Assembly (NCBI GenBank): GCA_023248495.1
Contig: JAHFEK010000027.1
Span: 1-33,435 of the forward strand
Source: Nitrospinales bacterium
GTDB taxonomy: Bacteria > Nitrospinota_A > UBA7883 > JACRGQ01
Direction: 5' to 3'
Length of the DNA stretch: 33,435 bases
Under the pieces are notes generated by a model. That model was not told the DNA's origin. It saw nothing but the letters and a program-made list of their open reading frames with translations, and made no database searches. Position numbers and translations under genes: made by a program. The first letter of the stretch is position 1. Every line of letters starts with the position of its first letter. This document shows, piece after piece, positions 9,821-19,856 of this stretch.

Positions 9821-12800
9821 TTATTTCGGCGTTTTTATTTCAACGACGGGCGAGGGCTTGCTTTCCAGGCCGGTGGAATCGACCGCCGTGACATAGAACG
9901 AGAACGATGTGTTCGGCTTAATATCTTTTACCGCCATGAAAGAGGTCTCGGTGACCGTTCCGATAACCGACCCGCCCAAGAAGGCTTTTTTATAAACGTT
10001 GTATTTCACCACGTCGCCGGTGGGGGAGGGGCTCCAGGAAAGGCCGATACCGGCTTGATCCAAGGTGGCGGCGGGGGCTCCGGGCGCGGCTGGCAACGGT
10101 TTGGTGGAGATGCTGATGGTCTCGGACGGTTCGCTTTCCAGCCCGTCGGTGTCTTTGGCCGTCACGCGGAAGTAGTACGTGCCGCCATCATCCAGTTTGC
10201 CGGCGGTGAACGAGGGATCCTTCGCGCTGCCCGCGGAGGAGAAGCCCTTGTCGGCGGCCGCGCTCCGGTAGATCAGGTATTCCTTGATGTCTTTTTCGGC
10301 GTTGGCGTCCCATTTAAGGGATGTCTGTTTCACCTCGCCGCTGGTTCCGCCAAGGCCGGCCGGTTTGGCGGGCGGTGGCTTGGTTACGCCCGCCACCGGA
10401 TCCGATTGCGCGCTTGACACATCGGCCACGTTATACGAGGTGATTCGATACTGGTAGGTGGAGTTATCTTTCAAGCCGCCAAAAGCCCCCCCTTTATCGG
10501 TAAAGGAAGCCACGTCGCGTCCGGCAAGCTTCTTTATTGATTCGGGTTTTTTTCCCTCGACTGTGCGGAACAGCTCGTATCCGGCAATCTCCTCTTTCTT
10601 GATGGGCGTCCAGGTTAATTGCACTTCGCGGAATTTTCCGGCGCTTGCCGCAAAGTCCCCCGGGGTTTCGGGCGGGCCGAACGTGGCGGCCTTGACGCTT
10701 GGCGAAAGGGCGCTTTCAACCGTTCCCCCCTTGAGATATGCGGAAACCGCGTAGTGGTATTCGGCGCCATCTATGAGATGGTTTCCCTTGTCGGTAAACG
10801 CCACCGTGACGGCATCTTTTGTTTCGCCGATCTTTTTAAATTCTCCCCCGGGCGTGTCTTGCCGGTGGATTATGTAGCCGGCGACTTCCTTGTCGGCATG
10901 TTGGTCCCAGCCGAGGGAAATGCTGCGGACGAACTCTTTGACGATACGCAGGGCGGCCGGGGCTTCCGGTTTTGGGTGGGTAGCCGCGGCCACCGCGGGG
11001 GAAGGTTTGCCGGCTTTCCCAACCTTGTTTACCGCCAGCAGCCGGTAGTAATAAACGCGGCCGCTTTCCAGGGGCATTTCCTTGGATGATTTTAGGACGG
11101 CCTGCACATCTTCTCCCTTTTTAATGGAAAGCGCGTCGGCGAATTTACCGTCTTCCGCATCGGCTTTTTGAATAATATAGCCGGTGGTTTCCGGGTCGGA
11201 CGGCTTGGCCCAATTAAAGGTCACCTGAAGAATTTCGTTGGAAACAGCCTTGAATGAGGCGGGGGCGGCGGGGCCGCCTTTGGTGGTCGCCGAGACGGGG
11301 TCGGACAGGACTCCCTCCACCTTTTCGGCATTAACGGCGGCAACTTTGTAATAGTAGGTTGCTTCATCGTTTATCGGGTTCGCCTTACTGTCGAGGTCGG
11401 TGTAGGCGGGGGATTCGGCCGCTTTGATTGTCGCGAGCGGGGTGTATTTTCCTTCACGGGTTTCCCCGCGGTAGATGGTGTAGCCCGTGGTTTCGGCTTC
11501 CTTGGAAGGCGTCCACGCAAGGTCGATCGCGCGGATTTTCGCGGAGCTTGCGGTGAGCCTGCCCACCGGGCCGCAGTGCAGGCGCACCATCTGGTTGGCG
11601 GCGATTTTTTCGGGGGCGTTTTCCGCGATTACTTCCGCAGTGGCGGTTTTAGGGGTTACCGTGGCGACCTTGATTTTTCCGACCGCAACCTGCTTGATGT
11701 TGCCTATCTGGCCGGTTGTCTGGTCGACGATTTTTTCGTCGGCCCGGATCACGTTCAGCACATCGCCTTTTTTCAGGCCGTCCAAGGAGCCGATGTTGAT
11801 GACCGCCTCTTTAGCCCCTTCTTTGCGTTCGATCACTACCCCTTCGGCAAAGGGCTTCACTTTTAAAATTTCGATGGAGAGGGGTTTTTCGGCGGAACCG
11901 GCGGTTGCGCGGTTTTCCATCTCATCCCATGCCTCAATGTAGTATTCCAGCGCCGCGCCGCTCATTGCAGCCGCCGGGATTGCGAGGGAAATCACGCCGG
12001 TGGCGGGAATGGGGCGCGTTTCCTTCACATAATTCTTTTCTCCCGCTTTCCGGTAAATGATCTGTGCGCCGGCGGCGGCGCCGGAATTGTCGGTCACTTT
12101 GGCGGTTATCACCAATTCAGAGGCGTCAGAGGCGGCTTTCACCGGTTCGTGCAATATCACCGGGGGTTCCTTGTCAAGCCCTTGAATGGCGATTTCGTAC
12201 GGCGATTCCGGCGCGCCATCCATGGCCAGGTTGCCGGCCGCGTCCACGGCGCTTAGATAATATTGCAGCATGTTTCCCTTTACGGCGTTGCTGGGAACCA
12301 CCCCTTCATAGATACCTTCGGCCATTTTGAACATGGAGCTTTTAACGTAGTCGCCCCCGGCCTGTTTTACGCGGAAATGAAGAAAGACCTCTTTGACCCC
12401 TTTGTTGTCGCGCGCCGAGGTTCGCACCGTATAGGAGCGGCCTTCCCGCGGTTTCGGTCCGACGGCATGGATTATCTGGGGCGGGGTTTTATCCTCTTCT
12501 TCTTTCGGTTTAAGCGCGACCGCAACATTGGCGCGCACGCCGCCGGTGATCGTGATGGTTTGGGTATGCGCGATGCTTCCTTCTTTCGTGACCTGGATGA
12601 CGTGTTCGCCGAGTTCCAATTTTTCCACCACCAGCGGAGTGATCCCCGCCGGATTGCCGTCCAGGACGACGGCGGCGCCCACCGGGGTGGAAGTTATGGA
12701 AAGGGATCCGGTTTTCGGAGCGGGGGCTTCAGCGGGTTTCGCCGCTTGCGGCGGCGCCGTCTCGGCTGGCTCGGACTGGGCTGGCGTTGCTGCCCCGGGT

Positions 12801-12895
12801 GATGCGTCAACAGTTGCGGGAGGAGTTTCCGTGTCGGCAAAGGCGATGGTGGCCGCGATTAGTAAAATGGTGGTGAACAGACTTTTTTTAATCAC
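9821..12895 (-). CDS. Secreted PEGA and fibronectin type III repeat protein, GTG start
   Basis: This protein of about 1024 residues is predicted to be exported; its role is unknown but its layout is that of an envelope or surface scaffold. In order: a signal peptide (VIKKSLFTTILLIAATIAFA); a Pro/Ala/Glu-rich linker; a PEGA domain (SITSTPVGAAVVLDGNPAG); two Ig-like modules each starting DK-PP; a small beta domain with INIGSLDGLKKGDVL that resembles the FlgT C-terminal type; and six fibronectin type III modules of about 95 residues, each with a W-x-P-like start and a YxxYRVTA-like strand. The frame is open to TTG 13084, but GTG 12895 sits 5 bases after GAGGAGA and starts the signal peptide, so it is the start. 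A possible -10 box TATAGT reads on the minus strand at 12928-12933. There is no catalytic motif and no anchor or sorting signal at the C-terminus. Confidence 0.85.
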   Translation of the reverse strand: MIKKSLFTTILLIAATIAFADTETPPATVDASPGAATPAQSEPAETAPPQAAKPAEAPAPKTGSLSITSTPVGAAVVLDGNPAGITPLVVEKLELGEHVIQVTKEGSIAHTQTITITGGVRANVAVALKPKEEEDKTPPQIIHAVGPKPREGRSYTVRTSARDNKGVKEVFLHFRVKQAGGDYVKSSMFKMAEGIYEGVVPSNAVKGNMLQYYLSAVDAAGNLAMDGAPESPYEIAIQGLDKEPPVILHEPVKAASDASELVITAKVTDNSGAAAGAQIIYRKAGEKNYVKETRPIPATGVISLAIPAAAMSGAALEYYIEAWDEMENRATAGSAEKPLSIEILKVKPFAEGVVIERKEGAKEAVINIGSLDGLKKGDVLNVIRADEKIVDQTTGQIGNIKQVAVGKIKVATVTPKTATAEVIAENAPEKIAANQMVRLHCGPVGRLTASSAKIRAIDLAWTPSKEAETTGYTIYRGETREGKYTPLATIKAAESPAYTDLDSKANPINDEATYYYKVAAVNAEKVEGVLSDPVSATTKGGPAAPASFKAVSNEILQVTFNWAKPSDPETTGYIIQKADAEDGKFADALSIKKGEDVQAVLKSSKEMPLESGRVYYYRLLAVNKVGKAGKPSPAVAAATHPKPEAPAALRIVKEFVRSISLGWDQHADKEVAGYIIHRQDTPGGEFKKIGETKDAVTVAFTDKGNHLIDGAEYHYAVSAYLKGGTVESALSPSVKAATFGPPETPGDFAASAGKFREVQLTWTPIKKEEIAGYELFRTVEGKKPESIKKLAGRDVASFTDKGGAFGGLKDNSTYQYRITSYNVADVSSAQSDPVAGVTKPPPAKPAGLGGTSGEVKQTSLKWDANAEKDIKEYLIYRSAAADKGFSSAGSAKDPSFTAGKLDDGGTYYFRVTAKDTDGLESEPSETISISTKPLPAAPGAPAATLDQAGIGLSWSPSPTGDVVKYNVYKKAFLGGSVIGTVTETSFMAVKDIKPNTSFSFYVTAVDSTGLESKPSPVVEIKTPK

Positions 12896-12964
12896 AGTTC
12901 TCCTCAAGCATAATAGATTTCGGTCTACTATAGCAAAATGGGGAGAAACAGGAAGGGGAAAAGG

Positions 12965-13013
12965 AAAAAAACGGGGGGAAGGGGAGGGGAGGGGAAAACC
13001 CCCCGTTTTTTTT
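12965..13013 (-). terminator. Bidirectional terminator with a G-quadruplex-prone loop
   Basis: A perfect 14-bp stem is formed by seven A, C and six G (12965-12978) with six C, G and seven T (12999-13012). The T-run closes the hairpin in either direction. The loop plus the stem's G-run gives four runs of at least 4 G on the + strand (12973-12978, 12981-12984, 12986-12989, 12991-12994) separated by 2, 1 and 1 bases, a very strong quadruplex motif. For minus-strand transcription the G-rich strand is the template. Confidence 0.85.
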
Positions 13014-13020
13014 AACGTGT

Positions 13021-13089
13021 TTAATCGGCAGTCAAAGTTAAAATGGCCGCCCATGGCACCGTTATGCCGCTCTGGGTGATCCAATTCAT
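13021..13089 (-). CDS. Possible 22-residue peptide in the sigma-54 transcript
   Basis: ATG 13089 opens a frame reading MNWITQSGITVPW and nine further residues, ending in TAA just before the terminator stem. An upstream AGAAGG lies about 10 bases before the ATG, slightly far for a good ribosome site. The centre is hydrophobic (VPWAAILTL). No known family is recognised. It may be translated, or the transcript may be purely regulatory. Confidence 0.25.
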   Translation of the reverse strand: MNWITQSGITVPWAAILTLTAD

Positions 13090-13143
13090 TTCTATGTCAA
13101 CCTTCTAGGCATTTTATTTTATTTGCCTAATGACCTAATAATA

Positions 13144-13159
13144 AGCATTATGCGTGCCA
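13144..13159 (-). promoter_or_regulatory. Sigma-54 (-24/-12) promoter
   Basis: On the minus strand the sequence reads TGGCACGCATAATGCT. It matches the consensus TGGCACG-N4-TTGCA at all positions except one T, with the -24 GG and -12 GC at exactly the required spacing. An NtrC-type sigma-54 activator gene ends 140 bases upstream. A palindrome CAATATTG at 13189-13196, flanked by partly symmetric bases, lies about 30 bases upstream and could be an activator site, although such sites are usually further away. Confidence 0.65.
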
Positions 13160-13297
13160 TTTTTAAAGAACAATAAATCAATAAGATGCAATATTGTGAT
13201 GCTAAAATAAGTGAGGCAAAAACGTTACAGTGCGGTATTTATGGGATTGATTTAAGTTTTATTGTGGAGGGGTTTGAGGGGCTGTTATATGGAGGGA

Positions 13298-14671
13298 TTA
13301 CAGGCGGCGGTAAAAAATGCTTCGATCCAATTTTAGCAAGTCGGCCGCTTTCGATTTGTTGCCGCCGCACTTTTCCAGGGCAAGCTTCAGCACCTCCTCC
13401 GTTACTTTTTCCATTGAAAACCCCTCTTCGGGGAGGTCTACCACCAAATGAATATGGCCGGGCCGGTTTCCACCGGGCGCGGCGCGGCTGTTATCTTCGC
13501 TGATTGTCAGGTGTTTCGGCTGGATCAACTCGTCCTCAGTGAGGATGGCGGCCCGCTCCAGGCAGTTTTTCAGTTCGCGGATGTTGCCCGGCCATTCGTA
13601 GCGCACCAGCTTCTCCATCGCCTTTTCCGAAAGACCGGGGAGCTGCTTTCCCAACTCCTGCCGCAGTTGTCCCAAGAAATAATTGGCCAGCAGCGGAATA
13701 TCCTCCTTCCGCTCGCGCAGCGGCGGCAACGTGATCGGAAACGAACTGACGCGGTGGAAAAGATCCACCCGGAAGCTCCCGTTTCCCACCATCTCCTCCA
13801 GATTGCGGTTGGTCGCCACGATAATCCGGAAGTCGGCCTTTATCGAGTGATGCGAGCCGACTTTTTCGTATACCCGTTCCTGCAATACCCGCAACAGCTT
13901 TGCTTGCAGTTCCAGCGGCATGTCGCCGATTTCATCGAGCAGAATCGTTCCCTTTTGCGCCAGGCCAAATTTGCCGTCCCGGTCGCGGTCCGCCCCCGTG
14001 AATGCCCCTTTGACATGGCCGAACAGTTCCGATTCCAACAGGTTGGCGGGAATGCCGGCGCAGTTCACCGCCACGAAGTTGTTCGCCATGCGGGGACCGG
14101 AGAAATGAATGGCGCGGGCCAGCACCTCTTTTCCGGTTCCGCTTTCCCCGTAAATGGCCACGGACGTGTTGATTGTCGTGGACACTTTTTCGGCGGTTTC
14201 CAGCACCCGTTTCATCAGGGGGGATTGCGTGACGATATTGTGGAAACTGTATTGTTCTTTTAGCTGGCTTTTAAGCTTTACGTTTTCTTCGTTAAGCCGC
14301 TGGAGTTCCAGGTTGCGGCGGATGGCCGCCACCATATCCAGCGGTTCAAACGGTTTGACCATGTAGTCGGTGGCGCCATCCTTCATGGTGGCGACCGCCA
14401 TATCGATGGTGCCGTGGCCGGTCAGCATGATGAATGGCAGGGAAATCCCCCGTTTCTTCATTTCCTTCAGCAGTCCCGGGCCGTCCATGCGGGGCATTTT
14501 CTGGTCGGCGATGACCATGTCCGCGCTTTCCCGCTCCAGAATATCGAGGGCCTCAAGCCCGTTGTGGGCGGTGAGCGCGTGAAAACCCTCCTGCTTGAGA
14601 ATGCTTCCCAAGGTCAAGAGCGCCACCTCGTCGTCGTCGACGATAAGCACCGTAGCTTCGTGATTCCCCAT
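13298..14671 (-). CDS. NtrC-family sigma-54-dependent response regulator
   Basis: The 457-residue protein is a phosphorylation-controlled activator of sigma-54 RNA polymerase. Residues 1-125 are the receiver (D12/D13/D14 cluster, phospho-acceptor D56 in IADQKMP, T84, K106 in VKPFE). Residues about 145-375 are the AAA+ domain with Walker A GESGTGKE (175-182), the sigma-54-contacting GAFTGA loop (222-227) and Walker B ILLDEIGD (243-250). The C-terminal Fis-type helix-turn-helix (CGGNKSKAADLL to SIFYRRL) binds DNA. Every residue needed for activity is present. GGGGGAT precedes the ATG. No histidine kinase is adjacent, so it is an orphan regulator. A sigma-54 promoter directly downstream (13144-13159) is an obvious candidate target. 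Confidence 0.96.
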   Translation of the reverse strand: MGNHEATVLIVDDDEVALLTLGSILKQEGFHALTAHNGLEALDILERESADMVIADQKMPRMDGPGLLKEMKKRGISLPFIMLTGHGTIDMAVATMKDGATDYMVKPFEPLDMVAAIRRNLELQRLNEENVKLKSQLKEQYSFHNIVTQSPLMKRVLETAEKVSTTINTSVAIYGESGTGKEVLARAIHFSGPRMANNFVAVNCAGIPANLLESELFGHVKGAFTGADRDRDGKFGLAQKGTILLDEIGDMPLELQAKLLRVLQERVYEKVGSHHSIKADFRIIVATNRNLEEMVGNGSFRVDLFHRVSSFPITLPPLRERKEDIPLLANYFLGQLRQELGKQLPGLSEKAMEKLVRYEWPGNIRELKNCLERAAILTEDELIQPKHLTISEDNSRAAPGGNRPGHIHLVVDLPEEGFSMEKVTEEVLKLALEKCGGNKSKAADLLKLDRSIFYRRL

Positions 14672-18905: not shown

Positions 18906-19164
18906 AAAAAGTGGTGCCTTAAACCGTGGGGGATTAAAGGCTTAGAAGGAGGAGGCGGACAGGAAAGGTGAATGCGACGTTTGTGCGCGCGACGCGCCAC
19001 TTATCGGACGAGATCGTCAGTTTCGGATTGATATGTGTTTCCATATGCGATCATTCTATTGCATTACCTCGCCGCCTCAAAGTTCTTTTTGCGGCGAAGA
19101 GCCCATTCCCGCTTTGCGGAGCATCTCTTAGCCATGTGCAATTTTTTATATCATGGCTGATACT

Positions 19165-19176
19165 TTTGTATACAAA
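19165..19176. promoter_or_regulatory. Perfect 12-bp palindrome, possible operator
   Basis: TTTGTATACAAA is exactly self-complementary and lies in non-coding DNA. It may be a dimeric regulator site. No adjacent promoter could be fixed. Confidence 0.25.
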
Positions 19177-19290
19177 CCCGTGAACGCCGTCATTGCCATG
19201 TCATTGATAATAAATGGTTCATTAACGGCACGGTGATTGCTCTGTTTCTGTTGCAGGTGGAAATACCTACTATTTCCTCCTCTCCGGTTA

Positions 19291-19328
19291 GGGGTGGGCA
19301 CCTCCCACTGTCCACCCCATTTTTTTTT
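19291..19328 (+). terminator. Rho-independent terminator of an unidentified + strand transcript
   Basis: GGGGTGG (19291-19297) pairs with CCACCCC (19312-19318), followed by A and nine T. Inside the loop GTGGG and CCCAC offer an alternative smaller hairpin, so two exclusive folds are possible. No protein gene lies upstream on this strand closer than the RRM gene. Confidence 0.65.
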
Positions 19329-19451
19329 CCCTCAAAAGTTACCCTCAAGACAACCGATAAAAAACCCGCCATTTCAAATCGGACGTAGAATATAGCTGTA
19401 AGCGGATACCGCTTATCCGTTTGGTTAACCGATAACGGAAAGGAAAAAACC

Positions 19452-19856
19452 ATGTTTGATAAATGCGGATCTGATAAAAAAGAGTGCGTCAACCGGTTCT
19501 GCTATTGCCGCTGCTTCGGCTGCGCCCTGTTTGTTGCCGTGGCGGTTTTGCTGGCGGGATTCGTGGTGCAACTGCTCTGGAATGCCCTGATCCCTGCCAT
19601 CTTCGCGCTGGGAACAATTTCCTTCGTGCAAGCGCTGGGATTGCTGATCCTTGCGCGGCTGTTGTTCGGTTCCTGCGGACACCGGCGCGGCCATCACGGT
19701 CACCGCCACGGCGGATGGTGCGGATGGGCCAAGAAGGATGCCGCCGAATGCGGGGACTGGAAACACTACGATGCCTGGTGGCATGAAGAAGGAAAAGAAT
19801 CTTTTAAGAAGTATGCCGCTGGCAAAAAAGAGAACAAGGACGCCCAAAACCTTTAG
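19452..19856 (+). CDS. Small Cys/His-rich membrane protein, unknown function
   Basis: This 134-residue protein begins with a cysteine-rich cytoplasmic or periplasmic segment (C5, C12, C17, C19, C21, C24). Two membrane segments follow (about 25-42 and 46-74), joined by LLWNALIPAIF and ending SFVQALGLLILARLLFG. Next comes a His/Gly-rich stretch (HRRGHHGHRHGG) and a charged tail. The WN-x3-P-x-IF and QALGLL-x-L-x-R-x-LFG pattern recurs in uncharacterised small membrane proteins of other bacteria, from general knowledge. The Cys and His clusters suggest metal binding. AAAGGA precedes the ATG. The leader contains AAGCGG, ATA and CCGCTT as a hairpin just upstream. It is transcribed alone. Confidence 0.75.
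   Translation: MFDKCGSDKKECVNRFCYCRCFGCALFVAVAVLLAGFVVQLLWNALIPAIFALGTISFVQALGLLILARLLFGSCGHRRGHHGHRHGGWCGWAKKDAAECGDWKHYDAWWHEEGKESFKKYAAGKKENKDAQNL

Follow-up and report, generated by a model that had tools for sequence, protein, structure and literature searches.

The locus and its question

In a 2.57-Mb draft genome of the Nitrospinota, the gene of an NtrC-type response regulator is followed on the same strand by a candidate sigma-54 promoter and, a short way on, by a strong terminator, which raises the question of what is transcribed between them. The original prediction was a dedicated small RNA or a micropeptide. We compared the window, i.e. the whole stretch of 33,435 nucleotides analysed here, with the genomes of its congeners and of more distant members of the phylum. 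The features under discussion are collected in Table 1. The best explanation, which we hold to be probable on comparative sequence grounds, is that the segment is a non-coding small RNA gene driven by the adjacent sigma-54 activator.

Table 1. Positions (window coordinates), strands and basis of the features discussed in the text
Feature	Position	Strand	Basis
NtrC-type response regulator, presumed activator	13298..14671	-	Pfam, sequence, clade of orthologs
Putative activator-binding site CCGCACTGTAACGTTTTTGCCTCAC, centred at about -90	13211..13235	-	conserved in four congeners; core beside the G007 and G011 orthologs
Sigma-54 -24/-12 promoter TGGCACGCATAATGCT	13144..13159	-	matrix score and conservation
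Predicted small RNA, about 168 nt	12965..13133	-	start by spacing rule, end at terminator
22-codon frame MNWITQSGITVPWAAILTLTAD, judged a chance frame	13021..13089	-	not conserved
Intrinsic terminator, 14-bp stem, C/U-rich 20-nt loop (12998-12979)	12965..13012	-	folds and conservation
Near-pure pyrimidine tract, 64 nt	12935-12998	-	conserved; lies between small RNA and -10 box of the next gene
Extended -10 box TGCTATAGT of the downstream gene	12927..12935	-	invariant in 4/4
Downstream PEGA/fibronectin-III protein gene	9821..12895	-	Pfam; tblastn match in relatives
ATACTTTTGTATACA upstream of the second promoter	19160-19174	+	contains invariant ACTTTTGTATACA
Second sigma-54-driven short RNA unit	19226-19330	+	relatives in L223-L226, L230-L235
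134-aa gene behind the second RNA	19452-19856	+	in seven genomes, no Pfam match

A conserved sigma-54 promoter behind an NtrC-type regulator

The minus-strand promoter with exact -24/-12 spacing that had been claimed is confirmed as TGGCACGCATAATGCT at 13159-13144: the GG-N10-GC spacing is exact, and the -12 element reads ATGC as against the consensus TTGC. With a simple -24/-12 matrix it scores 16.6 of 18.5 bits and is the top sigma-54 match in the 33-kb window, where the sole other site of at least 14 bits lies at 19226 (14.9 bits); on the orthologous contigs of the congeners G001 and G002 the orthologous site alone reaches at least 14 bits. By itself the pattern is unremarkable, as TGGCACN6TGCW is found 7 times in the genome versus 7 for a reversed control. 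Since plain sigma-54 pattern counts do not exceed the control genome-wide, conservation was used as evidence, and it is conservation rather than the match itself that carries the case for the promoter. It is present in all four congeners, with the other three reading TGGCACAGATTATGCT, TGGCACGCATCATGCA and TGGCACGTATCGTGCA, and 11 of the 16 aligned columns are invariant. Loss of the GG and GC elements in close relatives, which had been named beforehand as a ground for abandoning the prediction, did not occur, both elements being kept in 4/4 congeners. RpoN is encoded in each of the seven genomes checked for it.

The regulator gene, said to end 140 bases upstream on the same strand, ends at 13298, a measured 139 bp before the promoter. 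Its product combines a receiver domain, a sigma-54 AAA+ domain with the GAFTGA motif and a Fis-type HTH (PF00072, PF00158, PF25601, PF02954). It is 86-88% identical to its counterparts in the three other genomes of the genus, 63% to the ortholog in G007 (another genus) and 59% to that in G011 (another family), and together with its orthologs in eight other Nitrospinota genomes it forms one clade with support of 100/100. The recognition helix is nearly identical among the orthologous regulators. A scan of named genomes for the regulator returned two congeners and otherwise distant regulators only.

The comparison also brought out an upstream element, TTTTTRC-N2-CAC, that the original prediction had missed. 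It is written TTTTTGCCTCAC in the window copy and lies in CCGCACTGTAACGTTTTTACCGCAC-like DNA common to the four congeners, in all of which exactly 63 bp, gap-free, separate TTTTTRC from the TGG of the promoter. Beside the orthologous regulator of G011, TTTTTACAACAC stands 67 bp before TGGCAAAGTAATTGCT; beside that of G007, ATTTTACAACGC stands 63 bp before AGGTACGCTTCTTGTA, which is the top-scoring sigma-54 site within 500 bp there and yet weak (5.4 bits). As the motif was defined after inspection of the genus and this promoter is weak, we treat the G007 case as suggestive. Counting it, the spacing is 63 bp in five genomes and 67 in a sixth; in G008, G018 and G019 neither the site nor the promoter adjoins the regulator. 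A search of 24 genomes for site plus promoter gave no second plausible target, the other matches being at control level and coding-like, and when the upstream site by itself was used to look for a regulon, the other matches were likewise at control level. In each congener the site joined to a plausible promoter is unique to this locus. The activator seems dedicated to one target, and the putative upstream site would be where it binds.

The predicted RNA and its terminator

A terminator with a 14-bp stem, claimed about 130 bases beyond the predicted start, is indeed there. Its arms are A7CG6 (13012-12999) and C6GT7 (12978-12965), enclosing a 20-nt loop, UUUUCCCCUCCCCUCCCCUU; counted from the predicted start at 13133, the stem begins about 120 nt on and ends about 168 nt on. 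A simple terminator scan missed this hairpin because it allowed loops of 3-8 nt only. The terminator is found in 4/4 congeners, with no other occurrence in any of the four genomes, and is the best conserved part of the unit: 13 of 14 columns in the 5' arm and 17 of 20 in the loop segment are invariant across the four.

The body of the transcript is a different matter, being only 19-42% alike between the two subclades, which counts against the small-RNA reading; drift of a similar degree is seen in the DNA ahead of the upstream site. Selection appears, from these alignments, to hold the promoter and the terminator and not the stretch between them. Singly folded, each of the four predicted RNAs forms a 5' hairpin in addition to the terminator, but their bodies fold only slightly better than shuffles (z-scores -1.65, -0.29, -1.41 and -1.92). 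The alignment fold of the four supports the terminator alone, with no covariation. Both results again count against the reading. Because the body z-scores are weak and the alignment fold reduces to the terminator, what we claim is a non-coding RNA and not a conserved fold. Searched against Rfam up to an E value of 1, the segment gave weak eukaryotic microRNA and snoRNA matches only and none to CrcZ, Qrr or GlmY. A search that recovered Hfq from five control genomes detected none in the five genomes examined here (completeness 78-98% for the congeners, with G011 rated 100%).

A second predicted sigma-54-driven RNA in the window

The comparison uncovered a stronger case of a sigma-54 RNA 6 kb from the first, on the plus strand. 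Behind its promoter, CGGCACGGTGATTGCT at 19226-19241 (TGGCACGGCGATTGCT in G003), come two hairpins and a U-run at 19249-19330. G000-G003 and G007, which represent two genera, are identical over about 60 consecutive bases, from GGAAATACC through the A that follows the terminator stem, and the RNA folds better than all of 200 shuffles (z -4.1), with an unpaired core, CUCUCCGGUUA. It belongs to no Rfam family, the lone weak match lying further on and on the other strand. A model search of 24 genomes of the phylum recovered diverged copies in G008 (C16) and, as a second copy, in G007 (C23). A sigma-54 site (14.9 and 16.6 bits) immediately precedes each of them; the copies share the core CUCUCCGGUUAGGGG, while the first hairpin aligns poorly across them and covariation is not above shuffles. 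A weaker third match, G008 C18, has no sigma-54 site there and is probably spurious. Some 50 bp ahead of the second promoter lies ACTTTTGTATACA, which does not vary among five genomes and resembles a site for another activator. Homologs of the 134-aa gene behind the unit are 52-84% identical to the window copy in seven genomes. This second unit is better supported as a small RNA than the one at 12965-13133. That the window holds another sigma-54 short transcript, one whose body is ultraconserved, suggests a use of sigma-54 small RNAs in these genomes.

Alternative explanations

The sigma-54 promoter might instead serve the PEGA-domain gene downstream, with the hairpin as an attenuator subject to occasional read-through. 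That gene is on the same strand and is the same neighbour in 4/4 congeners, and a conserved terminator, the best kept part of the unit, would suit such a leader. The gene likely starts at GTG 12895, after GAGGAG, and not at TTG 13084, the tblastn match of the protein in relatives beginning at the former point. However, the terminator is followed by the gene's own invariant extended -10 box, TGCTATAGT, which indicates a probable promoter of its own; the folds show no alternative antiterminator pairing; and the PEGA orthologs of G008 and G010 are located elsewhere, without such a hairpin upstream. We consider a conditional leader unlikely. In G003 the PEGA gene copy (G003:C89:59654-62701, L146) is reported with one internal TAA stop.

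More distant lineages offer another explanation to which we give similarly little credence, namely that promoter and upstream site are the old control region of an operon lost in the genus and that the terminator stops a functionless transcript. In G011 the site and promoter are followed by an 82-aa frame, which matches the Os1348 NHLP RiPP-precursor model, and then by PocR, PAS-GGDEF, HD-GYP and PilZ genes; in G007 the gene behind the site and weak promoter is of the MEDS-LuxR kind. As a separate observation, the leader behind the G011 promoter (L139:7855-8229, minus strand) folds at -50.7 kcal/mol (z -3.25) and has no Rfam match. In G011, and possibly in G007, the control elements therefore lead protein genes and not a terminated RNA, which counts against the small-RNA reading, as the free divergence of the RNA body favours a vestige. 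What a vestige leaves unexplained is that promoter, exact spacing and terminator have been kept in four species amid drifted DNA. Given this arrangement, the control region appears to predate the small RNA; as far as a few genomes can suggest, the latter may have arisen in the genus when the genes downstream were lost or replaced.

It is very improbable that the conserved element acts as DNA only, the terminator tract forming a quadruplex or roadblock that insulates the downstream promoter. The pyrimidine tract starts with the terminator loop, extends toward the conserved -10 box of the next gene, measures 52-70 nt across the four genomes and is about twofold longer than any other in the stretches scanned; its plus strand has four G-runs, each of at least 4 G, in all four. 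However, such an element, with its hypothetical quadruplex, gives no account of the conserved sigma-54 promoter and upstream site.

Finally, translation of the 22-codon frame is hardly credible: the frame was located between promoter and terminator (13089-13021) as claimed, has an AAGG-like ribosome site ahead of its ATG and has some ATG nearby in the relatives, but the ATG frames there run to 17 codons in G002 and 7 in G001 and read through the terminator in G003, with unrelated sequences; as none of the three relatives has an equivalent frame, a micropeptide is rejected. The comparison of the intergenic region across relatives, proposed as a check, thus upheld the promoter and the terminator but not the frame. 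Of the two products foreseen, the dedicated small RNA is favoured by the conserved promoter, upstream site and terminator and by the fact that the site follows the regulator, while the micropeptide falls with its frame.

Proposed model: an activator with its own small RNA

The small-RNA reading rests on several lines taken together: the upstream site, promoter and terminator stand out as conserved islands where the non-coding DNA of the four genomes has otherwise diverged; the spacing of site and promoter is fixed (63 bp, 67 in G011); the regulators form a single, fully supported clade (100/100) with a near-identical recognition helix; RpoN occurs in seven genomes and no frame is conserved; and both the terminator and the site joined to a plausible promoter are unique to the locus in each congener. 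The adjacent response regulator, presumably phosphorylated by a kinase encoded elsewhere, would on activation bind the conserved site, which is centred some 90 bp ahead of the start, and cause sigma-54 RNA polymerase to open the 13159-13144 promoter. The product would be an RNA of about 110-170 nt, stopped at the strong terminator and encoding no peptide, which would act in trans.

Its most likely means would be the C/U-rich terminator loop, pairing with G-rich, Shine-Dalgarno-like stretches of mRNAs, a step that, taken by itself, we put forward tentatively. A search for loop targets with the complementary 13-mer gave matches above control in every genome and no conserved target; the 30 loci with a 13-mer that were inspected (one pattern, a subset of the matches) lie mostly within coding frames and share no common leader. 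As no target was found, this mode of action is our inference. A bolder and somewhat unlikely version is that of a sigma-54-controlled, Hfq-independent RNA in which the terminator loop is the sole selected part and pairs with G-rich leaders, the tract perhaps doubling as a G-rich DNA roadblock that protects the next promoter.

Parallels in other bacteria

The locus is best read as a further case of a known kind. In the CbrB-crcZ system of Pseudomonas and Azotobacter, the gene of a sigma-54-dependent small RNA likewise lies immediately downstream of that of an NtrC-type regulator and forms a transcription unit of its own (PMC8871633); CrcZ, however, titrates Hfq/Crc, whereas Hfq was not detected here and Rfam gave no CrcZ match. 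In Vibrio, qrr1 similarly adjoins the gene of the sigma-54 activator LuxO, at 151 bp (PMC8043402), but it is oriented opposite to luxO, and five Qrr RNAs occur in V. harveyi, in contrast to the single, same-strand unit without a Qrr match described here. The glmY gene of Enterobacteriaceae, E. coli included, shares with our locus a sigma-54 promoter with upstream activating sites and a conserved synteny with the regulator (QseF, also GlrR) operon (PMC6075780); it differs in lying upstream of that operon. The partner protein of GlmY is RapZ, and no GlmY match was obtained here.

The conserved part of the RNA is unusual, and in it the locus recalls RepG of Helicobacter pylori, whose gene also lies beside a response regulator gene, that of the orphan regulator hp1043, and whose C/U-rich terminator loop pairs with G-repeats (PMC8295292). 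A near-fixed C/U-rich terminator loop is the conserved part in both; RepG has a known G-repeat target, and sigma-54 control is not mentioned in the portion of that source available to us, whereas the present locus has a sigma-54 promoter and no target was found.

Among the ten best matches of a literature search on Nitrospinota, small RNA and sigma-54, none names the phylum. The locus would offer Nitrospinota a concrete example of a small RNA under sigma-54 control and, if the loop is its working part, another terminator loop that, like that of RepG, serves as a pairing arm.
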